Assembly (NCBI GenBank): GCA_026708035.1
Contig: JAPOVQ010000034.1
Location: forward strand, 1 to 42,500
Reading direction: 5' to 3'
DNA from: Chloroflexota bacterium
GTDB lineage: Bacteria > Chloroflexota > UBA11872
DNA length: 42,500 nucleotides
Numbering within the stretch: the first letter of the stretch is position 1; each line of letters opens with the position of its first letter. The translations under genes were made by a program, and so were the position numbers. Under the pieces are notes generated by a model, which saw only the letters and a list, made by a program, of their open reading frames with translations, was not told the DNA's origin and searched no databases. Positions 1,652-32,161 of the stretch are shown here, piece by piece.

Positions 1652-3850
1652 TTGATCATTAGCTGCCTCTGGCCCCGCTCCCGCCGGATGCTCCTGGTCT
1701 GGATTCCGCTGGTCGTGGTGGGTGTTCTTGCCAGCGCCGGGCTGTCGCTGGCCCTTGGGTTTCGTTCCGGCCTGCATACTCAGCACGACGCTGTCATAAC
1801 CAGGGATGGTCCGCCTGGATTGCCACCCAGAGTCCAGCCGACCGATGGGCCGCTCCGGACATCCAAGCTGGTCGCCACGGGTTACGGGCCGTTGGCAATG
1901 ACTGTCTTCGCGGGCGAAACGGGACAGCCGCTGAACCTCCCCGGCATCCCCCGGGTCGAGCCGCCTGGGACCGTGCTGGCCTCACCGGCGGTGCTTGCCC
2001 AGTCTCAGGATGACTGGACGGGTGAATTGGGCGCCTGGCTGGGCGACCGGAATGTACAGGAACTTTCCGGCGCGGCGCTGGCTCATCCCCGCGAAATGGT
2101 GATCGTGGAGTTCGTCGATGCAGTTCTCCCGGAGCTCGCCTCCAGGTTCCACCCGGTTCGCGCCGGACGCGGCTCAACAGGTGAACCGCCGCTTGACACC
2201 AGCTTTGTTGCGCTTGGGCTGCTCGTCCTGGTACTCCCGTCGGTCGCGTTGGCCAGAGCCGGTGCCGCCGTGCATCTCAACGCTAGGGCGCGGCGCTATG
2301 GACTGTTGCGGGTTCTAGGCGCGCCGCCACGGCAGTTGGCCATCGCCATTGCCGCCGACATGGGGGTTCCGCTAATTGTCGGCGGGATTGCAGGCTCGGT
2401 CGCGCACGCGGTCGCGATGTCGTCGCTGGATTCGTTCACGCTGGCCGGCAGTTCGTACTGGGCAAACGACCTGCGCCTTCCCATTTTGCTGGGCCTTGCG
2501 GTCCCGCTGGCCACCGTCGTGGTCGGGCTGGGAAGCGTCGCGCGAATGGTCCAGCGCGCCAGCCGTGATCCAGTCGCGACGCTGCGCAGGGAACGTCCCC
2601 GCGTTTCCTACTTGTCCTACCTGTCGGCGGCTGGCGCGTTGGCTGGTCCCACGGCCATCTTCGCATCCGCCAAACTGGACGCGGGCCTGTCACCCTGGTT
2701 GATTACCGGCGGGTTGCTGCTAAGCATAATTGGCCTTGAAGGATGGTCCCGGCTGGGGGTGACGTTTGCGGGTCGGGCGCTCGCCAGCCGGACACGGGCG
2801 CAGATTGCGGGATCGCGAATGTCACGCTCGGGCTCCGACGCCTTGCTCGGCGTATCCGCCACCGCAGTGGCAGTCCTCCTGGTGGTGTTTATGGTGTCAG
2901 CGAACTTTCAGGGCACTCCAAAGCCGGTAGGCAACTTCGATGTATTCGTTAACCTTCCAAACCTTACGTCGCCTGACTCGATCGTCCGCAGCGTGGACGG
3001 AATCGACGGCGTTACCCGAACAGTGGCGGCGGGACGGATTCCCGTCGACATCAACGGAAAAGAAACATCGCTATATACGCTGACGTGTGACGATGTACCC
3101 GGGTCGGTTGCGCTCGACGCGACTTGCGATGCTGGGAGCGTCTACCTGGCGTCCGAGGCCGATGCAGCCAGCGTAACGGTGACGAATCGTTATCCGGAGA
3201 CCGATGCGTCGATTCCCGGCATCTACCCGGTGGGAGGGCGCGTCAGGGGTTCCTGGGTTCCTAGTAACGGAGCCGTGTTGATCGTTGACCAGCTGCTGCG
3301 ACCACTCATACCGGACCACACCGTCCTCCTTGTTTCAACGGACGGCGCTTCGGAATCCTTGCGACACGTCATGCAGGGCCTGCAAGACTTGCCCGACGAG
3401 TTGTATGCAACCACACATGCCGCTCTGGTATCCGGTATCAACATAGAAACCTTGATCGCCAATCCTTTCCTGCTGGTCATAGCGTCCACTGCGTCCGGGA
3501 TGGCGGCGGTGGCGCTGCTCTATGCCGTGGTCTTGCTCTTTCGTCAGCGCCAAGCGGAGTTCCAAATGCTTCGCTGTCTAGGCGCCACTCGGAGGTTGCT
3601 GGCTATCGACATTGGCTTGCTCTTCGCGCTGCCGCTGCTGCTTGCCTTTGGCGTATCCATCCTATTGGGCTTGATTCTGTCTGCTACCTACAACATCAGC
3701 TTCGACGTCCAATCTCCCCCTGGAAACGCATCGTTTACATCCATACTGGTCACGGTGCTGGCTATTGGAAGCGTTGCGACTGCTCTGGTTGCGGGCAAAG
3801 CAAGCCGCACGCCGCCCTTGGCGTCGGATCCAGACGCGGCAGCCGGCTAA
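1652..3850 (+). CDS. FtsX-like ABC transporter permease
   Basis: A 732-residue membrane protein. TM1 lies near residues 14-36. An extracytoplasmic domain follows (about 37-175), then a first FtsX block of three TM segments with the coupling motif 'ARRYGLLRVLGAPPRQ', a middle region with further TM segments, a second large periplasmic domain (about 425-600) and a C-terminal FtsX block with 'RQRQAEFQMLRCLGATRR'. The duplicated FtsX domain gives the 10-TM topology known from LolE/BceB/YknZ-like exporters. The TTG at 1652 is the first start; ATG 1688 (residue 13) is an alternative. The last 89 bases overlap the convergent creatininase gene. It forms a two-gene unit with the preceding ATPase. Confidence 0.85.
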   Translation: MIISCLWPRSRRMLLVWIPLVVVGVLASAGLSLALGFRSGLHTQHDAVITRDGPPGLPPRVQPTDGPLRTSKLVATGYGPLAMTVFAGETGQPLNLPGIPRVEPPGTVLASPAVLAQSQDDWTGELGAWLGDRNVQELSGAALAHPREMVIVEFVDAVLPELASRFHPVRAGRGSTGEPPLDTSFVALGLLVLVLPSVALARAGAAVHLNARARRYGLLRVLGAPPRQLAIAIAADMGVPLIVGGIAGSVAHAVAMSSLDSFTLAGSSYWANDLRLPILLGLAVPLATVVVGLGSVARMVQRASRDPVATLRRERPRVSYLSYLSAAGALAGPTAIFASAKLDAGLSPWLITGGLLLSIIGLEGWSRLGVTFAGRALASRTRAQIAGSRMSRSGSDALLGVSATAVAVLLVVFMVSANFQGTPKPVGNFDVFVNLPNLTSPDSIVRSVDGIDGVTRTVAAGRIPVDINGKETSLYTLTCDDVPGSVALDATCDAGSVYLASEADAASVTVTNRYPETDASIPGIYPVGGRVRGSWVPSNGAVLIVDQLLRPLIPDHTVLLVSTDGASESLRHVMQGLQDLPDELYATTHAALVSGINIETLIANPFLLVIASTASGMAAVALLYAVVLLFRQRQAEFQMLRCLGATRRLLAIDIGLLFALPLLLAFGVSILLGLILSATYNISFDVQSPPGNASFTSILVTVLAIGSVATALVAGKASRTPPLASDPDAAAG

Positions 3851-4697
3851 CGACCATCGGCGTGCCGGCTCTCGCTCGCCGTCCCGCGGCGCATTTCGGT
3901 CGAATCTGAGGGCCTATGCCCTCCGAGATGGAGTTCAAGAGAGCGATGGTGCGGATCAGTCTGGCCGTCATCTCCACGGCAATCTCGTAGTACTGCCGCC
4001 CCAACTCCGCCGTGGCGGCCCGTGCGTCGTCACTCAACCCGGTGATTCGGGCGCCTGGAAACGACATGTACACTACGTCCGCCACGTTGACGGACCTGCC
4101 CATCGTCGACATCCTCAGTTTCGGCCAGCCCGAGCTGCGTGGATCGTCCCGGTCCGCGTGCTCGATCGGCAGCAGCTCGTCCAGCACCAGTTCCGGATGC
4201 AGGTGCAGCATCACCGATGTTTCAAAGTTGCCCCCATGACCGGGTGCGTGCACCGGCCGGCTCGCCTCAACCGCCTCCAGTCGCCGCCGCGCGATGTCCC
4301 AATAGGCGCCGGCCGCCACGCGAACGTCCGGGTGCTCCAGCACAAAATCTCGCGCCGCCTGCTGGATCAGCTGGATATTGCCGCCGTGCCCGTTCAGGAT
4401 CAGGATGCGGCGGTAGCCCGAAAGCACCAGGCTCTCCAGCAGTTCCAGCAGAACCAGGCTGAACGTGCTGTTCCGCAGCGTCAGCACCCCCGGAAACGGC
4501 CGGTGATGATCGGAACTGCCGAAATGCAGCGGCGGGCTCACCAGCACGTCCAGATCGCCGACCGCCTCCGCCGCCCCGCGCGCCACCGCCATGCAGCACA
4601 TCGTGTCCAGGCCGATCGGGTTGTGGGGGCCGTGCTGCTCGATCGCTGCCGTCGGCATGATCGCCGCGGCATTGGGCGCGCGCGCCAACTTCATCAC
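3762..4697 (-). CDS. creatininase-family amidohydrolase
   Basis: The creatininase fold is clear: AAIEQHGPHNPIGLD carries the metal ligands E20, H22 and D31; LNGHGGN carries H104; and APGHGGNFETS carries H154 and E159. Family members hydrolyse cyclic or linear amides (creatinine, 3-dehydro compounds, mycofactocin precursors); the substrate here is unknown. Translation begins at GTG 4697 or ATG 4694. The usual family N-terminus (MAYTALERLNRDEV) is present just upstream, from ATG 4728, in another frame, so a one-base indel near 4690 probably shortens the gene or is a sequence error. The last ~55 residues are Arg/Pro-rich, unlike the family, and run 89 bases into the convergent permease gene; an ancestral stop may have been lost. 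Confidence 0.8.
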   Translation of the reverse strand: MMKLARAPNAAAIMPTAAIEQHGPHNPIGLDTMCCMAVARGAAEAVGDLDVLVSPPLHFGSSDHHRPFPGVLTLRNSTFSLVLLELLESLVLSGYRRILILNGHGGNIQLIQQAARDFVLEHPDVRVAAGAYWDIARRRLEAVEASRPVHAPGHGGNFETSVMLHLHPELVLDELLPIEHADRDDPRSSGWPKLRMSTMGRSVNVADVVYMSFPGARITGLSDDARAATAELGRQYYEIAVEMTARLIRTIALLNSISEGIGPQIRPKCAAGRRARAGTPMVVSRLPRLDPTPRAACGLLCPQPEQSQRFQ

Positions 4698-4943
4698 GGT
4701 TCAATCGTTCCAGCGCCGTGTAGGCCATCGAGAGCCCTCGAAGCGTCCAGTCGGCGAATCGTGCCCCGCCGCGCATTCGCTGGCAAGGCCATCCGGTCGC
4801 GGGTCGAAGCAGTGTCCGCAACGCCGCCGAGAGTCACCGGCGTCGCCTGCGGCCTAGCTCCCGGCCGGCGCCCTAACCGCGACTTCCGTTGTCGCTTCCT
4901 CATCTGTAAGTAGCGCCTGGCGAGCATCCGCAGCAATCGGAAA

Positions 4944-4976
4944 CGAGCGCCCCCGGGTTTGGCCCGGGGGCGCTCG
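4944..4976. terminator. 14-bp perfect GC hairpin
   Basis: CGAGCGCCCCCGGG (4944-4957) pairs perfectly with 4963-4976 across a 5-base loop. In the leftward direction it is followed by TTT, in the rightward direction by no T-run. It separates the creatininase gene from the relic region to its right. Confidence 0.4.
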
Positions 4977-5025
4977 GCGTTGTCTGCGCTGTAGGGGTTC
5001 CTGCGAAGGCGCTGCAACGGCAAAG

Positions 5026-5214
5026 TTGAGGTCATCAGCGCCACGCGGTTTGCGGTCCTCGCGTGCGCATGGCAAGTCCACGACGCCGGCGATGGCGGCG
5101 GGCCTGGCGGACAAGCCGTGGACGCTGGCAGACGTGGTGCACTTGATCGAGGACCGCGAAGACAGCGCCGAGGACGTGGCGAAGCGTCGGAAAGATCGCC
5201 GCAAGTCAAAGTAG
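5026..5214 (+). pseudogene. transposase C-terminal remnant
   Basis: The frame carries TTPAMAAGLADKPWTLADVV followed by a Lys/Arg-rich tail. This resembles the extreme C-terminus of IS1-like DDE transposases, where the pattern 'TPAMAAG...W....V' follows the catalytic core. The catalytic domain is absent: only about 45 residues are recognisable and no start or terminal repeats were seen. The assignment is from memory of the motif and is tentative. It lies directly before a second degraded gene. Confidence 0.4.
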
Positions 5215-5235
5215 GACACTACCTGGGGTTGCGCC

Positions 5236-5668
5236 ATGAACAAGGACCTTGGCCGACACTCTAGAATCCCCGTCGCGCTCGTGGACGACCGAGAAACTTG
5301 GGAGGCTTACCGGCAACTGAACAGGTCAAAGGTGCGCGACTCGGGCCAGCGCACCCTAGCCGACATCGTGTCCGTGGTGCGCTACGCCATAGGCGGCGCA
5401 GACGAGTTCGTCCCTTCGCCGACGGTGTGCGTGAGCGGTTCCAGGGCTGGATGGCCCTGCAGGAGACTGCCGGATGCGCGTTGACAGAGGAACAGGTGCG
5501 GTGGCTGGAGGCCATGCGGGACCACATCACGGGCAGCGTTAGCATGGAGATGGGCGACTTCTATACGCCCCGTTCAACCAGCAGGGCGGCCTGGGCAAGG
5601 CGTATGAGCTGTTCGGAGATGAACTGGGCACACTGCTCGAGGAGCTGAACGGGGCTCTGGTGGGGTAG
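5236..5668 (+). pseudogene. degraded type I restriction HsdR C-terminus
   Basis: Three frames in succession reconstruct the C-terminal domain of an EcoKI-like HsdR. Frame one gives RTLADIVSVVRYAIGGADEF; frame two gives VRERFQGWMALQ, then LTEEQVRWLEAMRDHI; frame three gives QQGGLGKAYELFGDELGTLL, ending at TAG 5666-5668. At least two frameshifts interrupt it and everything N-terminal to this domain is missing. The domain differs from the C-terminus of the intact HsdR encoded at 16139-19273, so it comes from another type I system that once occupied the locus. Confidence 0.7.
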
Positions 5669-5697
5669 CGCTGGGCCACACAGGAAAGGAAGAGGAT

Positions 5698-5907
5698 ATG
5701 ACGACCATACCGGAGATTCAGCAAGCCATTATGAGCCTGTCCGAGGCCGACTACACGAAGTTGTGTCGCTGGGTATTGGACCAAGACTGGGAGCGATGGG
5801 AGCGGGAGTTCGACGAGGACGTGAAGTCCGGCAAGCTGGACGTCTTGGCGGCCGAGGCGTTGGAGGCCAAGGCCAGAGGCGAACTCAAGGACCTGCAGGA
5901 CCATTAG
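5698..5907 (+). CDS. antitoxin of a RelE-type toxin-antitoxin pair
   Basis: A 69-residue acidic protein. The start MTTIPEIQQAIMSLSEADY and the segment DWERWEREFDEDVKSGKLD, followed by a Lys/Glu-rich tail ending in 'ELKDLQDH', match the small antitoxins paired with RelE/ParE toxins of the next gene's kind. A strong ribosome binding site (GGAAGAGG) lies before ATG 5698. Its stop is immediately followed by the toxin start, so the two are translationally coupled. It probably neutralises the toxin and represses the operon. Confidence 0.75.
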   Translation: MTTIPEIQQAIMSLSEADYTKLCRWVLDQDWERWEREFDEDVKSGKLDVLAAEALEAKARGELKDLQDH

Positions 5908-6162
5908 GTGCACAGGACGGCTCCACATTTCTGGCGGCGCTTCCAAGAGTTGCCTGCACCGGTGCAACAGACGGCAAGACGAAACTTTGAGCTCCTGCAA
6001 GCCAATCCCAGACATCCTTCGTTGCGGTTCAGGAATGTTGGGCGCTATTGGTCTGCCCGGGTGGGCGCTGCGTACCGAGCGGTGGCTATTCAGGACCGCG
6101 GAGACTTCGTTTGGTTTTGGATCGGTCGACACGACGAGTACCTGAGGGTCCTTGGCCGGTAG
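5908..6162 (+). CDS. RelE/ParE-family toxin
   Basis: An 84-residue basic protein starting at GTG 5908 with no gap after the antitoxin stop. It reads FWRRFQELPAPVQQTARRNF, then LLQANPRHPSLRF, and ends with WSARVGAAYRAVA and FVWFWIGRHDEY. This is the usual order of the RelE fold in YoeB/HigB-like toxins: helical N-terminus, the 'NPRHPSL' turn, a beta core with the conserved Arg in 'YRA', and a C-terminal His/Tyr. Members cleave mRNA at the ribosome. Which subfamily this belongs to, and whether it is active, cannot be read from sequence alone. Confidence 0.8.
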   Translation: MHRTAPHFWRRFQELPAPVQQTARRNFELLQANPRHPSLRFRNVGRYWSARVGAAYRAVAIQDRGDFVWFWIGRHDEYLRVLGR

Positions 6163-6208
6163 GGGCAATCATGAGCGTACCTTCAACCAGAGAATCGGAT
6201 TGACAGAT

Positions 6209-6913
6209 ATGGAATTAGGTCAAATCCTAATCATAGTATTCACCGGAGTTGTCGCTGGGGCCACAGTCTTCTACGCGATCCTGACTTGGCGGCTCGTCTC
6301 AGAAACACGAAAGCTGCGGGAAGTTCAAACTGAACCAAGAATAAGCATACGAGTAGAAACAGATCACACCGGTCATCCTGGGTATGAGCTTGTAATAGAG
6401 AACAATGGTCATGGCGCGGCAAAGAACGTGCAAATTGAATTTGATGGGGACCCGAGCTATTTCCGCAGCGGTTGGATGCACGGTCACCCACCGGTGATTG
6501 ACGAGCTACCCATTATCAAGAACGGCCTAGATTATCTGGAGCCTAACCAAGCGTACAGGTTTCCCCTAGGAACGGTGTCCTCTGACGAATATGAGCGTGC
6601 CACTGAAACACCCTGGACTTTCCGAACACAGTACGAGAGTTTATATGGCAAGCGTAGAACTGATACCTACATTGTGGATTTCTCTCAATTTAGGGGGACA
6701 TTCTTCGAATCCAACCACTTGAAAGAAATAGCCGACCATTTGAGCGCCGTGAGGCAAGACTTCCACAGATTGACGGAAGGATACGCAAGAGTTCAGACCG
6801 TCACGCAAAGCAGAGATGAATATGAGCAGCGGCGCAAGGAATGGCAGAAGGCCCAAGAGGTTCAAGGCAAAAATGCCAGTGAAATGCCCATCTCCGACAA
6901 TGACGAAGAGTGA
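6209..6913 (+). CDS. membrane-anchored protein of unknown function
   Basis: From ATG 6209 the protein has 234 residues. It starts with one TM helix (IIVFTGVVAGATVFYAIL), followed by a polar region with beta-type alternation (about 40-180; PRISIRV...YELVIENNG) and a charged helical C-terminus. A TTG at 6152 overlapping the toxin stop would add 19 residues, but ATG 6209 sits directly before the TM segment. The gene is clearly AT-richer than its neighbours, which suggests horizontal acquisition. I do not recognise a family; the layout (N-terminal anchor, cytosolic beta domain, coiled tail) recurs in genes of defence islands, but no function can be claimed. Confidence 0.6.
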   Translation: MELGQILIIVFTGVVAGATVFYAILTWRLVSETRKLREVQTEPRISIRVETDHTGHPGYELVIENNGHGAAKNVQIEFDGDPSYFRSGWMHGHPPVIDELPIIKNGLDYLEPNQAYRFPLGTVSSDEYERATETPWTFRTQYESLYGKRRTDTYIVDFSQFRGTFFESNHLKEIADHLSAVRQDFHRLTEGYARVQTVTQSRDEYEQRRKEWQKAQEVQGKNASEMPISDNDEE

Positions 6914-7111
6914 TTGAGATGGTCATCGGAAGCCTGCCGGATGGCTGGGAATCTGCCGCGTTGGAAGACTCTTGCTTGGTCATTCAAGGTCAGTAACAGC
7001 GATATTCAGAAGAAGCAGTATGGCAACGGGTCCAAGGACAGCCCGCAGGTGTCGAAGGGTTCCACGTGGTGCTGCTAGGCGGCTGATCAGTTGTCCGAGG
7101 AGCTGGCGCGA

Positions 7112-7145
7112 CCGGGCCGCTGGGGTTGGCCGCCCAGCGGCCCGG
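7112..7145 (+). terminator. 13-bp perfect GC hairpin
   Basis: CCGGGCCGCTGGG (7112-7124) pairs perfectly with 7133-7145 around an 8-base loop. No T-run follows. It lies between the membrane-anchored gene ending at 6913 and the next start at 7172, so it is a candidate terminator or leader structure. Confidence 0.4.
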
Positions 7146-7171
7146 GGTGCGCCCACGAAAGTGAAAGAGGC

Positions 7172-7753
7172 ATGAGACCAGGAGATCGCAGGTTGCGCGT
7201 TCTCGTCCCGCTGACCGCCGTCGTGATCGCCGGAGCCCTATCTGTGACAGCGGCTATCGCCGTGCTCGACTACCGCCGAGCCGCCGAATGGAACACCTTC
7301 ATCTCGAACGCCATGCGTGCGGACGTGTCCGGACGTATGGTGACCTCGGAGATTGTTCGGGACGTACCAGTCCATGGATCGGAGCCGACGTCGGACGCCC
7401 CACAGGAGTTCCTCTATGTCAACGGCGTCGGCTCAGAGCCGACGATCCCCATCAGCCTGGTGTCCGAGGGGTTGTGGCTTGTAAGGATTCGCTTCGCGGA
7501 CGACGAGCCGCCGGACGTTGACACCATCCCGAACGTGATCCTCACCAGCGTCGGCGGTTCCGGCGGCGTCAGGTGGTCGAGAGACTGGTGGAATCGCATC
7601 TACGTTACGGGAGACAGGGATTGGGCGCAGGTCCTGGGCGAGCGGATGGCCGTATTCACACCCGGTGAGGTCGTGGTCCATATCTCGGACCTTCCGGACG
7701 ACGTCGCTTGGTGGGTGGAGTTTGAACGGCTTGGCGAGCTCAAGCAACCGTAG
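7172..7753 (+). CDS. single-pass membrane protein, function unknown
   Basis: ATG 7172 follows a good ribosome binding site (GAAAGAGG). The 193-residue product has a basic N-terminus (RPGDRRLR), one TM helix (about 11-33, VLVPLTAVVIAGALSVTAAI) and an extracytoplasmic domain of about 150 residues rich in Asp, Val and Trp. No catalytic motif or family is recognisable. The frame extends upstream to a TTG at 7091, but that extension lies across the hairpin at 7112-7145 and lacks a ribosome binding site. Confidence 0.55.
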   Translation: MRPGDRRLRVLVPLTAVVIAGALSVTAAIAVLDYRRAAEWNTFISNAMRADVSGRMVTSEIVRDVPVHGSEPTSDAPQEFLYVNGVGSEPTIPISLVSEGLWLVRIRFADDEPPDVDTIPNVILTSVGGSGGVRWSRDWWNRIYVTGDRDWAQVLGERMAVFTPGEVVVHISDLPDDVAWWVEFERLGELKQP

Positions 7754-9160
7754 GCACGTCCGGTCCTCGTCCATCGCACCACTCGAAGGTCCCGCTGTTC
7801 GCCCGCGGGAGACGATGCACCGTTGCCTCCGCACGCCCATCGCTGGCGTGAGGGCCAATCCATTGGTCCTACCAGCCAGTGGGATTCACGTGAATCCGGT
7901 AGCTATCGATTCAGAACCCGCAATCCCCACGTTGCAGCCGGGCGCGGTTGGCCCTTCAGCTGTCGTAGACCCAAAGGCTGGCGCCACCCGCCTCCCTGGT
8001 GCCGGTCATTGGACTTCGGGGTGCGTGCGAGCAGGCTCGGCCACTGGAGGACCTCGACACCGAGCGGCGGTCGATGCCTGCGCCACACCCGGCTCGCTCA
8101 TTCGTGCCAGGCGCGCGTGAAGCACCGGCGCGTCGTGGGGTGAAGGGTGTCGCTGACCGGCGGCGCTCCGAAATCAAGGTGCGAGATCGGCGGGCCTTGC
8201 ACAGCCGTCGACTCCAGGCCGCGATGTGGTGCTCGGGTGTGTCCTTCGGCTCGAAGTCGTGTCCCACTCAATATGACGGCTTCGCAGGTCCTTGGGCCTC
8301 GTTGATGATTCGGGGCATGTATACAGGCCCTCCCTCCGGGGTATGCGCGTTCCAGCGGGCTACGTGATGTCCTGGGGGCGTACAGAGATTGGAGGGGAGT
8401 TGCAGAAGTGCACGTGAGTCGTGGGCCAGGTGGTATCAGGTGGCAACCGAAAGGCGTGCCAGCAGTTTGCTGCAGTGGAGTAAGCATGTGGGCATAAGGC
8501 CCGGTTGCAAGACGGAGGACACGTCATTCTCTATAGGAGGGGCATGTTTGCATAAGGTGTGCGCAGAGGTTTCGAGCAACGACCTCGGCGAAAACGACAC
8601 GTTTGCCTGGGGAGCAAAGGCCGACGGGACGTGGCAGGCACTGGTTACGGCAGGGGTGGCGCATGATGGACGGGTGCCACCGCAGCTCACGGTGCTGTGC
8701 CACGCCCTGGTGTCAGAGCGGGAACCGCCGGGAATCGCGAGGGTATTGAGCATCAATCCTAGGACGCGAGCCTTGGGCAGGCGCCGCGACGGCTGCCGCC
8801 CGGCGGCGGGATCGCAACGAGGCCTTGGAGCAGCGCCTAGCGGAACCTCTGGTTGGCGTTGACGGACGCCCCTCGGCGGCTATCGTTGGGCTGCATGCAA
8901 GGAGCTGTGGGTTCGGAGCTTTCGGGAGGCAGCCAACGATGGCTCAAAGCAACCGCCCGCCGCCGACCGACGCGTGGAGGTGCGGGGACAGCGCGGAGAC
9001 GACCGTCGGTTGCTGCTGACTGTCGGGCCGCGACAAGGGTGCCGAGGCTACGGTGATCTCGGTGGAATGTGGCGGCGTGCCTCGCCCCCTGGCGTCGCAT
9101 GGCTACGGACTGGTTGGCAGAGCTGCACGGCGCGAGGCGGAGCGATGGCGGACTGCAGGC
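7754..9160. other. 1.4-kb stretch without a supportable gene
   Basis: Frames in this interval are short, Arg/Ser/Pro-rich, and overlap one another on both strands without ribosome binding sites. I recognise no protein motif, tRNA, long inverted repeat or intron domain in it. A frame at 8541-8760 (+), including the stretch NDTFAWGAKADGTWQALV, has the most protein-like composition but has no start or homologue I know. The interval may be decayed sequence bordering the restriction operon. Confidence 0.4.
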
Positions 9161-9177
9161 AAAGGAGGCATAGCCCA

Positions 9178-10788
9178 ATGACGACGGCACGACGAAGACG
9201 CAGAAGCGCCCAGCCCGAGTCGAGTGACGCCGGCGGCGCGATGGACCACCGGTCCGAGTTGTGGCGCATGGCCGACGCCCTGCGCGGCAGCATGGACGCC
9301 GCCGAGTACAAGCACGTCGTCCTCGGCCTCATCTTTCTCAAGTACATCTCCGACGCCTTCGAGGAGCGCCACGCCGTGGTGCTCGCCGAGTGGGGTGAGG
9401 AAGCCGCCGAGGACGAGGACGAGTACATCGCCGAGAACATCTTCTGGGTGCCGCCTGAGGCGCGCTGGTCCGTCCTGCAAGCCCAGGCGCACCAGCCCAG
9501 CATCGGCACGGTCGTCGACGACGCGATGGTCGCCATCGAACAGGACAACCCAGCCCTCAAGGACGTGCTGCCCAAGGACTACGCCCGCCCCGCGCTCGAC
9601 AAGACCCGCCTCGGCCAGGTGATCGACATGGTCAGCAACGTCAAGGTCGGCGGTGCCCAGGCCCGCGCCACCGACGTGCTCGGCAGTGTCTACGAATACT
9701 TCCTGGAGCAGTTCGCGCTGGCCGAGGGCCGCAAGGGCGGCGAGTTCTACACCCCGCGTTCCGTCGTCAGGCTGCTCGTCGAAATGCTCCAGCCCTACGA
9801 AGGCCGCGTCTACGACCCCTGCTGCGGCTCCTCGGGAATGTTCGTGCAGTCGGTAGAGTTTATCGACGCCCACGCCAGCGGCAACGGCAACGGCGGACGG
9901 GCATCGTCGAGAATCTCGATCTACGGCCAGGAGTCCAACTACACCACCTGGCGCATGGCCCGCATGAACTTGGCCATCCGGGGCATCGAAGGCCAGATCG
10001 CCCACGGCGACAGCTTCCACAACGACCGCCACCCCGACCTGCGGGCCGACTACATCCTCGCCAATCCTCCCTTCAACGTGTCGGACTGGGGCGGGGAGCG
10101 GATGCGGGACGACCCGCGGTGGACGTACGGCATACCGCCACTGCGCAACGCCAACTTCGCCTGGGTGCAACACTTCCTGCACCACTTGGCGCCCCGAGGC
10201 ATCGCAGGCTTCGTCCTAGCCAACGGCTCCATGTCGTCCAATCAGTCGGGCGAAGGGCAGATCCGCCAGAACGTGATCGAGGCTCGCCTGGTGGACTGTA
10301 TCGTCGCTCTGCCGGGCCAGCTATTCCGCTCCACCCAGATTCCTGCCTGTCTCTGGTTCCTTCGCCAGGGCCGCGGCGGGGCGCACGGACCTGGCAGGGA
10401 TGAGACGCTGTTCATCGACGCCCGCAATCTGGGCCACATGGTGGATCGCACGCGCCGCGACCTATCGGAAGAAGATATCGCCCGCGTTGCCGACACCTAC
10501 CACGCTTGGCGCGGCAGCGGGGGAGAGGGCGAGTACGCCGATGTCCCCGGCTTCTGCAAGAGTGCGGCGCTGGATGAGATTCGCCGGCACGGTCATGTCC
10601 TGACACCCGGCCGCTACGTCGGTGCCGAGCCGCAACCGGACGACGGCGAGCCCTTTGAGGATACGATGGCCCGGCTCACCAAGCAGTGGCGCGAACAGCA
10701 GGCGGAGGCCGCGAGACTCGACTCGGCCATTGAGGAGAACTTGGCACGGCTGGGGTTTGGTGCGAGCCAGGAGGGCAACGGCTTATGA
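9178..10788 (+). CDS. hsdM: type I restriction-modification methyltransferase subunit HsdM
   Basis: The start is ATG 9178, nine bases after a strong AAAGGAGG; the frame is open further upstream but without protein-like sequence. The 536-residue enzyme has the N-terminal HsdM helical domain ([19 protein letters not shown]), the linker [19 protein letters not shown]-adenosylmethionine motif [11 protein letters not shown] (D213) and the catalytic N6-adenine motif NPPF (N296). The C-terminal helical tail ([12 protein letters not shown]) contacts HsdS in this family. Two HsdM with one HsdS methylate adenines at a bipartite site to protect host DNA. It heads the composite operon ending with hsdR at 19273. 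Confidence 0.95.
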
Positions 10789-10912
10789 GACCTACAGTCG
10801 TCTTCGACTCGTCACCTCCTAACTGCATCGCCAATGTGCACGGCCTTCCTGACTGTGCGGCCACGGTGAATTTCGCAACCCAGAGGCAACTTCAGCCGCT
10901 GGAGGGAAATAC

Positions 10913-11092
10913 ATGACGGTCGGTGAACTCATACGCCTGCGGGCGATCTACCCGTCTGGCATACCGGTGGTGGCGGACGGCTACGGTGTGTCGCCAGGGC
11001 AGATATCCTCAGTGAAGATGGCCTTGAACTCGGCTAAACACCGATGGGATGAGCGACACAGCGAACCGAACAGCCCGACGAGAAACGGCTAG
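10913..11092 (+). CDS. 59-residue protein, possible helix-turn-helix
   Basis: ATG 10913 follows GGAGGG (10901-10906) at good spacing and the frame runs to TAG 11090-11092. The sequence reads MTVGELIRLRAIYPSG, then VVADGYGVSPGQISSVKMAL. The stretch 'YGVSPGQISSVK' has the shape of a helix-turn-helix recognition unit as in small XRE-like or intron-encoded HTH segments (e.g. YGVSxxxISxIK). It could be a tiny regulator of the downstream hepT-mntA-hsdS unit, or a fragment. A further 43-codon frame (10785-10916) overlaps the hsdM stop and the start of this one but has no protein-like character. Confidence 0.45.
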   Translation: MTVGELIRLRAIYPSGIPVVADGYGVSPGQISSVKMALNSAKHRWDERHSEPNSPTRNG

Positions 11093-11199
11093 GCAGCACT
11101 GACGTGGTCGAAGCGCTGGTCTTGCGGCGTGTGTCGAATTTGGACGGATTGGAGTCAGTCGTGAGCGGGCATGCATAGTCGTGGAAGAGGAGCCGTGCC

Positions 11200-11296
11200 A
11201 ACCACGGCTGTCAGATGGCGGGAGCATCGCGCCGAGGCCCATCGGTTGGACGCAGCGATTGGGGATAACCTGACGCAGTCGGGGCTTGGGATATGA
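11200..11296 (+). pseudogene. relic C-terminus of a second hsdM
   Basis: The frame ending at TGA 11294-11296 reads WREHRAEAHRLDAAIGDNL, closely parallel to the HsdM tail [19 protein letters not shown] encoded near 10690, including the Gly-rich end just before the stop. Only about 30 codons remain and there is no start. It lies directly upstream of hepT, where an hsdM stop would be expected if hepT originally followed hsdM. It therefore looks like the scar of a recombination between two related hsd operons. Confidence 0.7.
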
Positions 11297-11306
11297 GGGA
11301 TACCTG

Positions 11307-11738
11307 ATGAAGCTGGATTTGACACCGCTGGAAAATGCGGTGACGCAATTGGAAGATTCGCTCGTTCAGTACGAGTCCAACATAGTACGGCAGTATCCGA
11401 CGATCCAAAACCAAATGAGGGCCGGGGCTATCCAGGCATTTGAATTCACCTACGAACTCAGCGTCAAGATGATACGGCGCTACTTGGAACAGATTTCGGC
11501 CAATCCTGAGGAGGTAGATCAGCTGGACTTTCGGAACTTGCTCAGAATGGCGAGGCAACAGGGGTTGTTGCATTCCGAACCAGACGCTTGGATGCGGTAT
11601 CGCGCTGATCGTGGCGCCACCAGCCATGCCTACAACGAGGCGAGGGCCGAGAGGGTCTTTCAAGGCATCTCGGAGTTTCTGCGGGAGGCCCGTTATTTGC
11701 TCAAGGAATTGCAGGAAAAGAATGAACGCCTCGACTAG
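11307..11738 (+). CDS. hepT: HepT-like HEPN toxin (nucleotidyltransferase substrate-binding family)
   Basis: A 143-residue all-helical protein beginning MKLDLTPLENAV, with FEFTYELSVKMIRRYL and a C-terminal long helix. It carries RGATSHAY (R102, H107, Y109), an exact RX4HXY HEPN motif. In characterised HepT proteins the Arg/His form the RNase site and the Tyr is AMPylated by the partner MntA. The family is the HI0074/TIGR01987 type usually encoded next to an MNT nucleotidyltransferase. Here the partner domain starts 17 bases before the hepT stop (ATG 11722) and is fused to HsdS. ATG 11307 follows GAGGGA, while the frame is also open from a TTG at 11286. Location inside an hsd operon is unusual. 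Confidence 0.85.
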   Translation: MKLDLTPLENAVTQLEDSLVQYESNIVRQYPTIQNQMRAGAIQAFEFTYELSVKMIRRYLEQISANPEEVDQLDFRNLLRMARQQGLLHSEPDAWMRYRADRGATSHAYNEARAERVFQGISEFLREARYLLKELQEKNERLD

Positions 11739-13290
11739 CCCGGTGGACATCAGGATCGACCATCTTGAAGCCGTGCAATGCATCCTCCGCAAGCATCTGC
11801 CGGCGGGTGTCAAGGTCTCGGTGTTCGGCAGCCGCGCCAACTGGACCTCGAAGCACTCTTCAGACCTCGATCTGGCAGTGCAAGGCACCGCCGCGATCGA
11901 CCATGAAACTATGGCTAGGCTGGAGATAGCCTTCGAAGAGTCTGACCTGCCATATACCGTCGATGTAGTTGACCTGAACCGTATTGGAGAGTCCTTCAGG
12001 CAGATCGTCGAGTCGCAAAGAACTCTTCTTCCCATGTACGCAGATGGCAACAAGCCGATGCCGACGACTGGTTGGCACGAGGTTACGCTTGGGAACTTCG
12101 CACCTTTCGCCTATGGAAAGGGTCTCCGATCGGACGACCGAATCTCGTCAGGAGATGTACCGGTCATAGGATCAAATGGAATAATCGGTTATCACGATAA
12201 GCCACTGATTGATGGGCCAACTATCGTCATAGGAAGAAAGGGGACTGTCGGTGCTGTTTACTATTCCCCTGTTCCCTGTTGGCCGATAGACACGACCTTT
12301 TACATCACAGGTGCCGACTCTGGCCTTTTGCGGTTCAGATACTACGTTCTCAAGTCACTACCTCTTCAGGAAATGAACGCCGACAGCGCAGTTCCGGGAC
12401 TCAACCGCAATGACGCACACGCTTGTCTGGTGCGAGTGCCTGTTGAATCGGAACAACGCGCCATCGCCCACGTGCTGGGCACGCTGGACGACAAGATCGA
12501 GCTGAACCGGTGCATGAGCCAGACGCTGGAGGAGATGGCGCGGGCGCTCTTCAAGTCCTGGTTCGTGGACTTCGACCCCGTCCGCGCCAAGGTCGCTCTC
12601 AAGCAGTATGCCCTAGCGAATCACGCCGACCCTAACGCAGTGCCGAGCGGGAACGGCGCCGCGCCCGGAGGCGAGTGGACCGTCGAACGCGCCCGCGCCT
12701 ACCTGGACGCCATGGACCCGCAGATCGCCGACCTCTTCCCCGACCGGCTGGTGCCCTCGGAGCTTGGGGAGATGCCGGAGGGGTGGGAAGTGAAGGCGCT
12801 GGGGGAGCTTGTCGAACTTGCCTACGGTAAGGCTCTGCGAGCAGCCGACCGAAAGGACGGCACCGTTCCCGTGTATGGCTCGAACGGACAAGTCGGCTGG
12901 CACGATGAGAAGCTTGTAGTGGGGCCAGGCATCGTTGTCGGGAGGAAAGGCAACCCCGGTGTCGTAACGTGGGCGCATGGCGACTTCTACCCAATCGACA
13001 CGACCTTCTACGTGGTCCCAAGGAATGCCAATTTCGGGGTACACTTCCTTTTCTTTGCCCTTTCCATCCAAGACCTTCCGTCTGTTGCGGCAGATTCGGC
13101 GGTGCCGGGACTGAATCGAAAACTGGCATATATGAACATGCAGCTATTGCCTAACACACCACTCGTAGCCGAATTCAATGACTACGCGCGCGATATCTTC
13201 TCTCGCCGTCATCGTCTGCAATCGGAGTCCCGTTACCTTGCAGCCCAGCGGGACGCGCTCCTGCCGGAGCTAATGTCAGGGCTGAGGTGA
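11722..13290 (+). CDS. hsdS: MntA-type nucleotidyltransferase fused to type I specificity subunit HsdS
   Basis: A 522-residue fusion starting at ATG 11722 after AGGAAAAG. Residues 1-110 are a minimal nucleotidyltransferase: VFGSRANW (G36, S37), SSDLDLAV (D48, D50; spacing GSX10DXD) and VDVVDL (third carboxylate D81), all intact. Residues from about 113 (MPTTGWHEVTLG, where a free-standing HsdS would begin) form TRD1. The first conserved helical region follows (LDDKIELNRCMSQTLEEMA, then KSWFVDFDPVRAK), then TRD2 from about 351 (MPEGWEVKALGELVELAYGK) and the closing helices (AAQRDALLPELMSGL). HsdS chooses the DNA site and bridges HsdM and HsdR; MntA AMPylates HepT to silence it. ATG 12058 could give a separate HsdS but has no clear ribosome binding site. 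TRD1 DNA is AT-richer than the rest. Confidence 0.85.
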   Translation: MNASTSPVDIRIDHLEAVQCILRKHLPAGVKVSVFGSRANWTSKHSSDLDLAVQGTAAIDHETMARLEIAFEESDLPYTVDVVDLNRIGESFRQIVESQRTLLPMYADGNKPMPTTGWHEVTLGNFAPFAYGKGLRSDDRISSGDVPVIGSNGIIGYHDKPLIDGPTIVIGRKGTVGAVYYSPVPCWPIDTTFYITGADSGLLRFRYYVLKSLPLQEMNADSAVPGLNRNDAHACLVRVPVESEQRAIAHVLGTLDDKIELNRCMSQTLEEMARALFKSWFVDFDPVRAKVALKQYALANHADPNAVPSGNGAAPGGEWTVERARAYLDAMDPQIADLFPDRLVPSELGEMPEGWEVKALGELVELAYGKALRAADRKDGTVPVYGSNGQVGWHDEKLVVGPGIVVGRKGNPGVVTWAHGDFYPIDTTFYVVPRNANFGVHFLFFALSIQDLPSVAADSAVPGLNRKLAYMNMQLLPNTPLVAEFNDYARDIFSRRHRLQSESRYLAAQRDALLPELMSGLR

Positions 13291-13294
13291 GGAA

Positions 13295-14368
13295 ATGTCC
13301 GAACAGGAGAATGACGCTTTGAACATCAATTTGAATTCTCGAGCTGTCGAAAAGCTGATCGACTATACGGCGAGTGGCATCGGCAGCACAGCTAGCTTCG
13401 TCTTTTCTCGCATGATGGCGCGACGTGACGCCGAAGCGAAGCTCATCGCTGCTGAGGGTGAAGCAAAAGCGAAGATTGCCGAAGCCAAAACTCAAGCAGA
13501 CACCATGCGGATCATCTCGAAAGCGCAGGCCGACGCCCGTTCAACGATTATTTCCTCTGAAGCTGTTGTTGGTGGTGAAGTGACATTTGGCGATCTGGTC
13601 GAGCAGCGAATTCAATTCCAAGAGCAAAAACGACAATCCAACATTGAATCGGTCGTACAACAGGCAGCTTTGGAGCTAGAAGATAAGGAAGTCCAAGACG
13701 ACGAAGTCGATCACGACTGGACAGCGCGATTCTTCAACGATGTTCAAGATGTATCCTCTGAAGAAATGCAGCAGATTTGGGCCAAAGTCCTTGCAGGCGA
13801 AGTAGAGAGATCTGGGAGCACATCCATCAAGACTATCGGAATTCTCAAAAATCTAGATAAGGGAACTGCCGATCTATTTCGGAAGCTTTGCTCCATCTGT
13901 GTATCGATCAGCCCAGATGGAGGTATTATCATGGATGCCAGAATCCCTGCGCTAGGTGGTGATGCGGGAACCAACGCGCTGCAAAAGTACGGGCTTAGTT
14001 TTGACAACCTGAACGTGCTCAACGAACATGATCTTATAATCTCCGATTACAACTCCTCGTATGACTACAAGATGAGTGTGGGCATCCCTTTGCCCGGTCA
14101 AGCGCCACCCTTGTGGCTGAGATTCCCATTTAGATTTCAGGGACGATCGTGGGTCTTGGTGCCAATAAAACAACGATGGGTAGACAAAGAATTCAGGCTG
14201 TCAGGAGTCGCTCTTGCTCAATCTGGTAGAGAGCTTTCACGCGTCGTGGAAATACAGCCTATGAAAGAATACCTCGAAGACTTCAAGAAATTCCTTGGCC
14301 AAAATGACTTGAACATGGCTGAATCAGGGATTCATTTACCACACCAATTCCAAGTACCGCCGGAGTGA
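13295..14368 (+). CDS. DUF2806-domain protein in the hsd operon
   Basis: A 357-residue protein beginning four bases after the hsdS stop, with GAGGTGAGGA as ribosome binding site. An N-terminal segment (about 15-50) is followed by an Ala/Glu/Lys-rich helix (about 46-80, AEAKLIAAEGEAKAKIAEAK) that should form a coiled coil. Then come a charged linker and WTARFFNDVQDVSSEEMQQI followed by AKVLAGEVERSGS, which is the hallmark of DUF2806. The C-terminal half is beta-rich. DUF2806 proteins are found with restriction-modification and other defence genes, but their activity is unknown to me. The gene is AT-richer than hsdM and hsdR, consistent with acquisition as a cargo gene. Confidence 0.7.
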   Translation: MSEQENDALNINLNSRAVEKLIDYTASGIGSTASFVFSRMMARRDAEAKLIAAEGEAKAKIAEAKTQADTMRIISKAQADARSTIISSEAVVGGEVTFGDLVEQRIQFQEQKRQSNIESVVQQAALELEDKEVQDDEVDHDWTARFFNDVQDVSSEEMQQIWAKVLAGEVERSGSTSIKTIGILKNLDKGTADLFRKLCSICVSISPDGGIIMDARIPALGGDAGTNALQKYGLSFDNLNVLNEHDLIISDYNSSYDYKMSVGIPLPGQAPPLWLRFPFRFQGRSWVLVPIKQRWVDKEFRLSGVALAQSGRELSRVVEIQPMKEYLEDFKKFLGQNDLNMAESGIHLPHQFQVPPE

Positions 14369-14374
14369 AAGAGG

Positions 14375-14890
14375 GTGCCTACCACCATCCTCGCCGAATC
14401 TGGCGCGGAAGACGCCGCGCTCGGCTGGCTAACCGATTTCGGCTGCCAAACTGCTTACGGCCCCGTCATTGCACCTAATGCGCCAGGGGCCGAACGCGCG
14501 GACTACGGTGACGTGGTGCTCGAGCGCCGGCTGCGGGATGCACACGCGGCGTTGAAGCCCGCCCTGCTAGCGGATGCGCTGGACGACGCCTTCCGCAAGC
14601 TTACGCGGCCCGAGGGCTCGTCTCTGGAAGCGCGCATTCGAGGCTTCCACCGGATGCTCGTGAACGGCGTTGAGATCGAGTACCGGAACGCCGAGGTCCG
14701 GGTGGTCGGGGGACAGGATTAAGTCGTGGACCGCGAGAAACCAAACAACAACGACTGGCTGGCGGTAAACCAATTCAGCGTCACCGAGAACCGAAACGCC
14801 CGCCGGCCGGACGTGGTGCTGTTCGTCAACGGCCTGCCGCTGGGCGTGATCGAGCCGCTGTCGCGGCATATTTCGGGAAGGTTACGATAG
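14375..14890 (+). pseudogene. truncated hsdR copy (N-terminal part)
   Basis: From GTG 14375 the frame encodes a close relative of the first ~160 residues of the intact HsdR at 16139: shared blocks include [28 protein letters not shown] and RMLVNGVE. An in-frame TAA at 14720-14722 stops it. The same reading frame then continues without length change ([20 protein letters not shown], then [11 protein letters not shown]) until homology ends abruptly at 14854, just before the PD-(D/E)XK lysine. The stretch 14746-14854 is nearly identical at DNA level to 16504-16612. It is not expected to be functional; a 115-residue N-terminal fragment could still be made. Confidence 0.85.
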
Positions 14891-14894
14891 CGCC

Positions 14895-16028
14895 ATGGCA
14901 GCAACCCAATACCACCTTGGCATGTTCCCTCCTCGGAATCTGGACTGGGCCCGGTTAGTGCCTGAGATCGGGCGAGCGCACTCTGCGGTGGCGGCATATG
15001 GGGCGATGCTCGAAAGCATGCCCAACACTGGTGTCCTCATTTCTCCGCTTGCGACCCAAGAGGCCGTTTACTCAAACTGCATTGAGGGCACGGAAACAAC
15101 CCTTACTGAGGTTCTGACCTTCGAGGCCGATGAAGACCAACCCGTCGATGATCCAGCCAAGCGACACGACGTCTACGAGGTCGTGAACTACAGGATCGCC
15201 CTCGCTGCTGCCAACCGCCAGATCGAACACATACCTTTATCGTTGAGGCTCATTCGCAACGCTCACCGCATTCTGATGAGAGGCGTCAGGGGGCGGGACA
15301 AAGCCCCGGGCGAATACCGCCGCATACCCAACAGCGTTTGGATTGGACCTCCTGGTTCGACCATCGAGAGCGCCGACTTCGTGCCCTGCCCTGTGGAGCA
15401 TCTGGCGGGCGCCATGGATGCATGGGAAGGGTTCATTCACTCGGATGAGCCCGACCCGCTGGTGCAGCTGGCAATCGTTCATGCCGAATTCGAGTCAATC
15501 CACCCCTTCCTGGATGGAAACGGACGGATAGGCCGGTTGATCGTTCCGCTATATATGGTTGCGAAGGGCCTCTTGGAGGCGCCGCACTTCTATATCAGCG
15601 GCTTTCTCGATCAACACCGCGACGAGTACTACGAGCGGCTGCGAGCAGTGTCCCGCGATGATGACTGGACTGGCTGGTCCGGGTTCTTCCTGAAGGCCGT
15701 TGAAGAACAGGCCAATACCAATCTGGCCCGGGCCAGGAGCATCTTGGCACTCTACGACGAGTTGAAGGAATGGGTGGTTGACGAGACCCATTCCCAGTAC
15801 GCCGTTCGAGCTCTCGACTGGATCTTCGGAAAGCCGATTTTCCGTTCATCCGATTTCGTGCGGAACTCCGGGATTCCCGCACCCACGGCGTCCCGGATAC
15901 TACGAGTACTGCGCGACGGCGATATGTTGACCGTATTGCGTGAAGCTCGTGGGAGGCGGCCGGCGATGCTGGCCTTTTCCAGGCTCCTCCGCGTGGCGGA
16001 AGGCGGCGCGGCGGTTGCGTCTCACTGA
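14895..16028 (+). CDS. Fic-domain AMP-transferase, class II
   Basis: A 377-residue protein with the complete Fic motif HPFLDGNGRIGR (H203 to R214) and an N-terminal inhibitory helix motif SNCIEG (S60-E64-G65), the (S/T)xxxE(G/N) signature of class II auto-inhibited Fic enzymes. The C-terminal ~90 residues resemble a winged helix (PIFRSSDFVRNSGIPAPTAS, then ILRVLRDGDML). Such proteins transfer AMP from ATP to hydroxyl groups of targets when inhibition is relieved. The gene starts 40 bases after homology to hsdR breaks off and ends 110 bases before the intact hsdR. Fic genes are known passengers of type I restriction operons; the target is unknown. Confidence 0.92.
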   Translation: MAATQYHLGMFPPRNLDWARLVPEIGRAHSAVAAYGAMLESMPNTGVLISPLATQEAVYSNCIEGTETTLTEVLTFEADEDQPVDDPAKRHDVYEVVNYRIALAAANRQIEHIPLSLRLIRNAHRILMRGVRGRDKAPGEYRRIPNSVWIGPPGSTIESADFVPCPVEHLAGAMDAWEGFIHSDEPDPLVQLAIVHAEFESIHPFLDGNGRIGRLIVPLYMVAKGLLEAPHFYISGFLDQHRDEYYERLRAVSRDDDWTGWSGFFLKAVEEQANTNLARARSILALYDELKEWVVDETHSQYAVRALDWIFGKPIFRSSDFVRNSGIPAPTASRILRVLRDGDMLTVLREARGRRPAMLAFSRLLRVAEGGAAVASH

Positions 16029-16068
16029 TTGAAGACAATGGGTTTTGTGACTCATGTTGGGCCTATGG

Positions 16069-16110
16069 TGATGCACAACAGCGCTTGTGGTGAGCTCGTG
16101 ATGCACAACG
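16069..16110 (+). repeat. 12-bp direct repeat before hsdR
   Basis: GTGATGCACAAC occurs at 16069-16080 and again at 16099-16110, with start points exactly 30 bases (about three helical turns) apart, in the short gap between fic and hsdR. The same-face spacing suits a pair of operator half-sites. No protein is known to bind it. Confidence 0.45.
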
Positions 16111-16138
16111 AGAATCCCGGCGAACGACGCACAGGCCC

Positions 16139-19273
<3,135 letters not shown>

Positions 19274-30861: not shown

Positions 30862-30894
30862 CGACGGCCGCGGAGCAGACTCCGCGGCCGTCGC
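30861..30894. terminator. 15-bp perfect bidirectional terminator hairpin
   Basis: GCGACGGCCGCGGAG (30861-30875) pairs perfectly with 30880-30894 around a 4-base loop. It sits between the convergent propeller gene and proX, starting at the last base of the former's stop codon. No T-run follows on either side. Confidence 0.65.
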
Positions 30895-30924
30895 CTCTGC
30901 GCCATTGCGGCGCCTAGTTTCGGG

Positions 30925-31956
30925 CTATTCCGTCGGCCAGCCGTCCGGAATCTCGTCGGCGTCAAGGGCGGCTTGAATGGCCTCGGCGGCCTCTGGAGTC
31001 ACCCACGCGCCCCAGATGTCGGGGTTGCTCTTTAGCCACCAGATCGCGGCGTCATTTGTGCCGGCGTCGGGATTGTCGAGCACCCACTGGGCGATCGGCT
31101 TGTAGACCTCGATGTTGAGGTCCCAGGCCCGCAGCATCTGGACGACTTCAGGTGCGGTGGTGAGCAAGTCGGGATGCACCGCGATGAGGATGGTCGCGTC
31201 CTCAAATCCGCATGCCTTCGAGGTCGCCCAACACTCGTCGCTGTAGGCCGGCTCCTCGAGACGAACCACGTCCAGCACCAGGGCCGGCTCGTTGGTGCCC
31301 CACTGGTACCCAAGCCAAGGTTCGCCCTTCTCGTACGCGCCATACAGATCGGCGTTCAGCGCGGCGCCGTCACCGGGGTTGATGACTTCCACGTGATCGG
31401 TGAGACCGTAGGCCTCGATCTGGGCCGCCACGTTCTCTTCACAAGCCCAGCCAATGACGCAGGAGACGAGCCGCGCCTTGCCGCCGCTAGCCGCCGTCGC
31501 GAATATTTGCTTGAACTGCTCGTCTTTCAGGTCCTCGACGTTGTCAAGCTCGGGATATTGCTCTTGGAGGTAGGCCGGAATCACAAATCCGGACTGCCAG
31601 TCGTTGCCGAGGCTCTTGCCGACGGAGACCACCTCGCCGTTGGCAATCGCGTCGTCCCAAGCCTCCTGTTGGTTGGGCAGCCAAATCTCGAGCGTGATGT
31701 GGCTGTCGCCGCGCCGCAGGCCCTGGAATAGCGGGAGAGTGCTACCGAAGACCACGTCCGTGGGGTAGCCGTAGCCCTTCTCGACGATGTATTGGGCGAT
31801 GCGGTTCTGCAACTGAGCGCTATCCCAGTTCAGATCGCTAAAGACCAGTGTCGGCGGGGGGGCTTCGGCTTCCTGCTCGGATTCCCCGCAAGCAGTGACG
31901 CCCATGACGGCGAGCACCGCAAGAATAAGCGCGAGTCGCATGTACCGAGTCAGCAT
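30925..31956 (-). CDS. proX: glycine betaine/proline ABC transporter substrate-binding lipoprotein
   Basis: ATG 31956 follows GGGAGG and gives MLTRYMRLALILAVLAVMGV ending in a TAC lipobox. The 343-residue protein has the OpuAC/ProX pattern: VFSDLNWDSAQLQNRIAQYI, LEIWLPNQQEAW, VINPGDGAALNADLYGAYEK and WLGYQWGTNEPAL, with Trp residues able to form a quaternary-ammonium cage. The C-terminal region (WWLKSNPDIWGAWVTPEAA) is typical of the family. It delivers betaine-like solutes to ProW for osmoprotection. It is the last gene of the leftward proV-proW-proX unit; the 205-base gap after proW may allow separate expression. Confidence 0.9.
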   Translation of the reverse strand: MLTRYMRLALILAVLAVMGVTACGESEQEAEAPPPTLVFSDLNWDSAQLQNRIAQYIVEKGYGYPTDVVFGSTLPLFQGLRRGDSHITLEIWLPNQQEAWDDAIANGEVVSVGKSLGNDWQSGFVIPAYLQEQYPELDNVEDLKDEQFKQIFATAASGGKARLVSCVIGWACEENVAAQIEAYGLTDHVEVINPGDGAALNADLYGAYEKGEPWLGYQWGTNEPALVLDVVRLEEPAYSDECWATSKACGFEDATILIAVHPDLLTTAPEVVQMLRAWDLNIEVYKPIAQWVLDNPDAGTNDAAIWWLKSNPDIWGAWVTPEAAEAIQAALDADEIPDGWPTE

Positions 31957-32161
31957 GATTGACGCCTCCCCCAACTTCTGGTCGGAACAAAGTCGCCTTA
32001 GCACCTTAGCTCGCGGCGCGACACGGCGCGAACGCCGGCGACGTGGGCAGACCGGGTGTGTGACAGCCGCGCCACGATGATGGTCCAAAAGCCTTGTCAT
32101 CTTCCCGGATCGCTCACGCAAGAAGCGTCCACGGGCAGGGCGAGAAGCACGACCGCGGCGA

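Follow-up and report, generated by a model that had tools for sequence, protein, structure and literature searches.

A predicted HepT/MntA module inside a type I restriction-modification operon, with the antitoxin domain fused to the specificity subunit HsdS

Results

A type I R-M operon encodes HepT and an MNT-HsdS fusion

The window (the whole stretch of DNA analyzed, 42,500 nucleotides) is part of a 102-kb contig from a 3.46-Mb, 96%-complete assembly, and its kin were found by similarity search to be Chloroflexota metagenome assemblies. A type I restriction-modification (R-M) operon is located at positions 9241-19273, with all genes on the forward strand. The operon opens with hsdM (9241-10788; 515 aa with HsdM_N and N6_Mtase domains; the mechanical open reading frame starts at 8974) and closes with hsdR (16139-19273; 1044 aa with HSDR_N, SWI2/SNF2 and T1RH-like_C domains). 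Between these two genes lie hepT (11307-11738), an mntA::hsdS fusion (11722-13290), a DUF2806/TIGR03899 accessory gene (13295-14368), a 115-aa duplicate of the HsdR N-terminus (14375-14722) and a gene for a Fic/SoFic-like protein adenylyltransferase (14895-16028). HsdM, a two-TRD HsdS and HsdR are encoded together, a gene content that places the operon in type I, and no HsdS gene other than the fusion was found in the genome. A DUF2806 gene and an HsdR N-terminal fragment likewise stand ahead of full hsdR in a Truepera locus (L053). Fic is predicted to be a second AMP-transferring enzyme of the window operon, and Fic genes are also present in loci L091, L105 and L121.

The hepT product is a predicted HEPN RNase toxin of the HI0074/PF08780 family, 143 aa in length, in which a lone HEPN domain makes up the whole protein and no ABC-ATPase is fused to the nuclease. 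The exact RX4HXY motif claimed in an earlier, sequence-only reading of this DNA was found at R102-GATS-H107-A-Y109. Family membership was supported by matches to PF08780 (E=2.8e-32), NCBIfam TIGR01987 (81.9 bits, cut-off 55.8) and the sequence of PDB 1jog (HI0074; E=9.8e-25). The HepT model superposed on 1jog with TM 0.88-0.92 and also matched the AMPylated HEPN toxin 8xdj. Among 51 aligned HepT homologues, H107 and Y109 were invariant and R102 was retained in at least 90%. By analogy to HepT/MntA biochemistry, HepT would be a latent HEPN RNase with the toxicity of its relatives.

The next gene starts at ATG 11722, preceded by an AGGA Shine-Dalgarno match, and overlaps the end of hepT (11738) by 17 bases. 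From this ATG a single open reading frame of 522 aa runs to the stop codon at 13288-13290. Its N-terminal part (11722-12036, residues 1-105) is a minimal nucleotidyltransferase (MNT) domain similar to HI0073/MntA, followed by a linker (12037-12066, residues ~106-115) that is of low confidence, varies among homologues and includes an internal ATG at 12058, and by a complete two-TRD HsdS (12067-13287) recognized by profile and structure matches. In fusion residues, the HsdS is composed of TRD1 (119-240), a conserved helix (242-282), TRD2 (343-476) and another conserved helix (479-518).

The MNT domain was matched by Polbeta/NTP_transf_2 at residues 29-100 (Polbeta E=1.9e-11 when residues 1-105 were scanned alone) and by the sequence of HI0073 (PDB 1no5; E=2.6e-13). 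The GSX10DXD motif and third Asp of the sequence-only reading are present as G36, S37, D48 and D50, and D81. The modeled domain matched HI0073 and MNT antitoxins (1no5, TM 0.86; 8xeo, 0.83; 7bxo, 0.62). Against the NCBIfam MntA equivalog NF047752 it scored 35 bits, under the cut-off of 60, and it is closer to HI0073. Methylase_S matches covered residues 117-270 and the second half of the fusion. Similarity to HsdS starts at residue 116-117, which corresponds to positions 2-4 of HsdS profiles; thus, the whole of HsdS follows the MNT part, joined on at its usual first residues, as had been proposed. An AlphaFold2 model of the fusion built with 51 homologues had a pLDDT of 90.8, dropping below 50 at residues 110-114, and the modeled chain matched the HsdS crystal structures 1ydx, 1yf2, EcoKI and EcoR124I. 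The model suggests that the MNT and HsdS parts are joined by a flexible linker.

The fusion is widespread in bacteria

The sequence-only reading had suggested a database search for single MNT-Methylase_S polypeptides with an upstream HEPN gene. A species scan combined with profile searches of further genomes yielded 77 distinct fused MNT-HsdS sequences spanning at least 16 named phyla, a count that may be inflated by binning errors in metagenome assemblies. That the fusion is widespread, recurrent and sometimes reversed had not been recognized in the earlier reading. The species scan, in which each bacterial or archaeal species (GTDB) was represented by a single genome, gave 320 fused-type MNT relatives, with 80 loci kept, most of them in the order hsdM-hepT-mntA::hsdS-(accessory)-hsdR. 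The seed of the collection scan, WT[AS]K, favors W-type MNT; many of the collected loci are metagenome-assembled, and some stops in them may be errors. The complete Zymomonas mobilis plasmid pZMOB01 carries hsdM-hepT-mntA::hsdS-hsdR, with hsdM at 30878-32470 and mntA::hsdS at 389-1972, the latter annotated as 'restriction endonuclease subunit S'.

The fusion was detected in 5 of 301 sampled genomes of the phylum of the window and 6 of 41 of its class, in 16 of 85 Poribacteria (the phylum of L075), 6 of 369 from the class of a Comamonas genome, and 2 of 296 Bacteroidota (the phylum of L110). A phage-borne origin was considered, and no matches were found in IMG/VR contigs or phage records. The first ~115 positions of the PADLOC profile PDLC03138 ('Specificity_I') match the MNT domain; this profile holds the same MNT and HsdS layout but is labeled as a specificity subunit alone.

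MNT and HsdS are most likely made as one polypeptide

The frame at 11722-13290 contains neither a stop nor a frameshift, including at the MNT-HsdS junction, and a second, separate assembly (G157, locus L024) has this frame open as well, there over 617 codons. A local sequencing error is thus excluded, and an assembly or frameshift artefact was ruled out by this second frame, by the complete plasmid and by dozens of genomes. We also considered the internal ATG at 12058 (residue 113), which has no Shine-Dalgarno match, as the true HsdS start. Linkers across the family range from 0 to 44 residues; 56 of the 77 lack an in-frame ATG, 15 lack any start codon, and an ATG with a Shine-Dalgarno match of at least 4 bases was present in only 4. 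Separate translation of HsdS is thus not the general design, and the start at 12058 is disfavored as such, yet possible for the window gene.

These results bear on the reading that the fusion is a chance read-through with no functional consequence, HsdS being translated separately from ATG 12058. Unfused hepT-mntA-hsdS neighbors are known, and the former HsdS start methionine (MAGEWR) is still found in some linkers. By contrast, the fusion recurs across phyla with at least two independent origins, the ATG is missing from most linkers, and that of the window stands without a ribosome-binding match. We regard a chance read-through as very improbable.

Toxin and antitoxin halves are conserved and co-inherited

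A hepT gene was adjacent in 73 of the 77 fusions, directly upstream and typically with a short overlap. The MNT catalytic motif was intact in 75 of the fusions, as was RX4HXY in 68 of the 73 neighboring HepTs. In 51 aligned fusions, G36, S37, W41, D48 and D50 were invariant whereas the TRDs varied freely, which argues that the fusion is not a product of chance. The position of W41 in GSRxxW (11842-11844 in the window) was aromatic (Trp/Phe) in 76 of 77 fused MNTs and Gly in 48 of 66 unfused ones, and the Trp enrichment was re-checked with unseeded profile searches. When 85 Poribacteria genomes were searched from the HepT side, all 15 with this HepT type carried the fusion, and one fusion-bearing genome was without HepT. 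Evolutionary distances correlated for HepT and MNT with r=0.64 (0.58 after removal of the HsdM signal), compared to 0.24 (0.17) for MNT and TRD1. To judge from these comparisons, both toxin-antitoxin halves are under constraint.

Exceptions were found on either side of the pair. L194 (G259) has no HepT; its slot is taken by an ApeA-like HEPN Abi gene, and the fused MNT has lost its first catalytic Asp. At 3653-7240 of this locus the catalytic D of the fused MNT is changed to A, and the open reading frames in the HepT slot are ApeA_NTD1 and DUF4145-like, with an RX4H motif. A Schlafen AlbA_2 gene fills the HepT slot of the fused locus L058 (7725-9005), as does an Abi_2 gene in L062 (614-1594). 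The HepT-less fusions L058 and L087 keep an intact MNT motif; there the MNT could serve a different function, or the loss of HepT could be recent. A mutated MNT stands beside an intact HepT motif in L069, both motifs are kept in L089 although its HsdS is truncated, and the R, H or Y of RX4HXY is substituted in a small number of HepTs. In L026 (11583-13786), the HepT of the fused pair has Asp in place of the Tyr of RX4HXY; this locus also carries a standalone hepT-mntA pair upstream of hsdM.

Loci with damaged R-M subunits were compared. The fusion and adjacent HepT were intact at eight loci where hsdR, hsdM or both were broken. In G157, hsdM and hsdR have one in-frame stop each, next to an intact hepT and fusion. 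By contrast, of four loci with truncated HsdS, one lacked HepT, one had H changed to R in HepT, one had D changed to G in the MNT, and one was intact. This comparison (eight versus four loci) is post hoc, small and based on metagenome-assembled genomes, and it is suggestive of a pair that is kept when hsdR or hsdM is broken and mostly damaged when HsdS is truncated. The eight intact pairs are consistent with retention of the antitoxin as restriction decays.

The fusion arose repeatedly and was sometimes undone

Unfused hepT-mntA-hsdS arrangements were found in L195, L197 and L121, and these look like precursors of the fusion. L197 (9033-17998) has two tandem HepT-linked R-M modules, one with mntA-hsdS fused and one unfused. 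From its placement among MNT sequences, L038 belongs to a distinct MNT subfamily whose other members are unfused; the fusion thus appears to have arisen at least twice, with L038/L194 as an independent fusion within that other subfamily. The MNT tree was built from 97 columns with many forks unresolved, and its starred branches force at least 8 state changes (parsimony 19), which would require repeated gains or losses of the fusion, with some fusions undone. The standalone MntA of L094 and L096 (MNT open reading frames at 8899-9336) ends in '...VMAGEREET', resembling the fused HsdS start MAGEWR, and this tail probably derives from an HsdS fusion that has since been lost. The region ~11700-12500 (MNT and TRD1) is 98-99% identical between the window and G157, and the flanks are mostly 83-93% identical and lower downstream; in this recombination tract MNT and TRD1 have thus moved together.

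Discussion

We find the locus best explained as a type I R-M operon with a built-in HepT/MntA module, in which silencing of HepT depends on HsdS (probability of about 0.6). This explanation builds on the gene structure, single frame, motifs, folds, recurrence and co-inheritance described above. The adenylylation chemistry of S. oneidensis HepT/MntA, in which MNT blocks the HepT RNase (PMC7641770), serves as the model. By this analogy, the MNT on the N-terminus of HsdS would AMPylate Tyr109 of RX4HXY and thereby switch off a toxic HepT. With antitoxin and specificity subunit on one chain with a flexible tether, we infer that HepT would be silenced only while HsdS is made and retained, and that silencing would thus follow HsdS stability. 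The trigger would be loss of the operon, or HsdS that is not expressed or is degraded, leaving newly made HepT unmodified and arresting growth. The restriction system would in this way be held in the genome, and a second line of defense would be available when the complex is disabled or broken down by a phage; the guard and addiction functions share the same release step. A flexible linker of such variable length speaks against tight allosteric coupling and for coupling through dosage, stability or location. The sequence-only reading had tied the antitoxin to the HsdS/M/R complex and proposed that HepT could be freed when this complex is lost or inhibited. Physical coupling to HsdS stands, and across phyla, but the extension to the whole complex is less likely, as HepT control seems, from broken hsdR genes beside intact hepT and fusion, not to need all of R, M and S. 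The broader proposal is that of a covalently wired guard: type I R-M systems of this kind would form a far-spread class that evolved more than once, with HsdS as the antitoxin of an RNase and with abortive infection automatically triggered by phage attack on the restriction enzyme or by HsdS loss. It is offered tentatively, at somewhat less than even odds.

Other functions can be envisaged for the same gene arrangement. The assembled R-M complex could hold HepT off as a strict guard, with a phage anti-restriction protein stopping the attached MNT and so freeing HepT for abortive infection. The precedent is PrrC, a HEPN RNase within a type I operon that is released by T4 Stp (PMC12707154, PMC3874165, PMC3710099); moreover, the fusion implies that each M2S1 or R2M2S1 complex contains a single MNT, and at some fused loci ApeA-like, Abi_2 and Schlafen AlbA_2 genes stand in the place of HepT. 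However, a flexible linker of variable length provides no obvious allosteric path, hepT and the fusion are intact where hsdR is broken, and, AMPylation being a covalent change, modified HepT would not be reactivated simply by the binding of an anti-restriction protein; only newly made HepT could escape. A guard of this strict kind therefore seems unlikely. Doubtful, too, is a pure anti-loss module whose only effect is to hinder loss or replacement of the R-M operon, with no phage sensing. Retention of HepT and the fusion in loci with broken hsdR or hsdM, the occurrence on plasmid pZMOB01 and the co-inheritance of HepT and MNT all agree with addiction, but the fusions are mainly chromosomal, and an ordinary unfused pair, which is frequent in these taxa, would already be addictive, so that fusion suggests something more. 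It is less probable still that HepT is mainly a partner of MNT-HsdS whose binding or AMPylation state slows or restricts the formation of active restriction enzyme, for example when the system becomes established in a new host. HepT6:MntA2 hetero-oligomers (PMC7641770) would bring HsdS chains together and hepT sits between hsdM and hsdS; yet H107, Y109 and R102 of the HEPN catalytic site are conserved, which would be needless in a pure scaffold.

The module proposed here, with HepT silencing dependent on HsdS, resembles several known systems. As in the HepT/MntA (type VII) toxin-antitoxin systems, including Haemophilus HI0074/HI0073, a HEPN protein with RX4HXY is encoded beside an MNT with GSX10DXD, and the folds correspond (1jog, 1no5, 8xeo, 7bxo). 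The known antitoxins are free proteins of less than 150 aa (PMC7641770), whereas the window MNT forms the N-terminal part of the HsdS chain; unfused MNTs also have mostly Gly at GSRxxW, where the fused ones are aromatic. PrrC/EcoprrI, like the window, has a HEPN-fold RNase inside a type I hsd operon, and in both the R-M enzyme is proposed to keep the RNase latent. In PrrC, an anticodon nuclease, the HEPN part is joined to an ABC-ATPase and silencing comes from the complex, whereas the window HepT is separate and its predicted silencer is fused to HsdS. The N-terminus of HsdS likewise tolerates partners in M~S enzymes and in an engineered EcoKI M-S fusion (PMC3510504, PMC3874165), but there the partner is a methyltransferase and here it is a predicted adenylyltransferase antitoxin.

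Already known are HEPN toxins in R-M operons and the PrrC/EcoprrI guard (PMC3710099, PMC12707154, PMC3874165), as is the HepT/MntA chemistry (PMC7641770). Anantharaman et al. 2013 (PMC3710099) viewed HEPN toxins in R-M operons as multi-pronged defense and surveyed HEPN fusions to nucleases, helicases and ATPases; an MNT-HsdS fusion was not found in the text of that paper. Neither was a description found in the open-access PMC literature. The MNT-HsdS architecture is thus real, widespread and, apparently, undescribed.

PrrC/EcoprrI is the well-studied wiring of an RNase to a type I system, and MNT-HsdS represents a second, chemically different and far-spread wiring. Since defense-finding tools label MNT-HsdS as a plain specificity subunit, its antitoxin is hidden. 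With the coupling covalent, whether toxins in restriction operons are coupled or mere neighbors becomes simple to test. The fusion suggests how addiction to a restriction system, or its guarding, could be achieved with no additional sensor.
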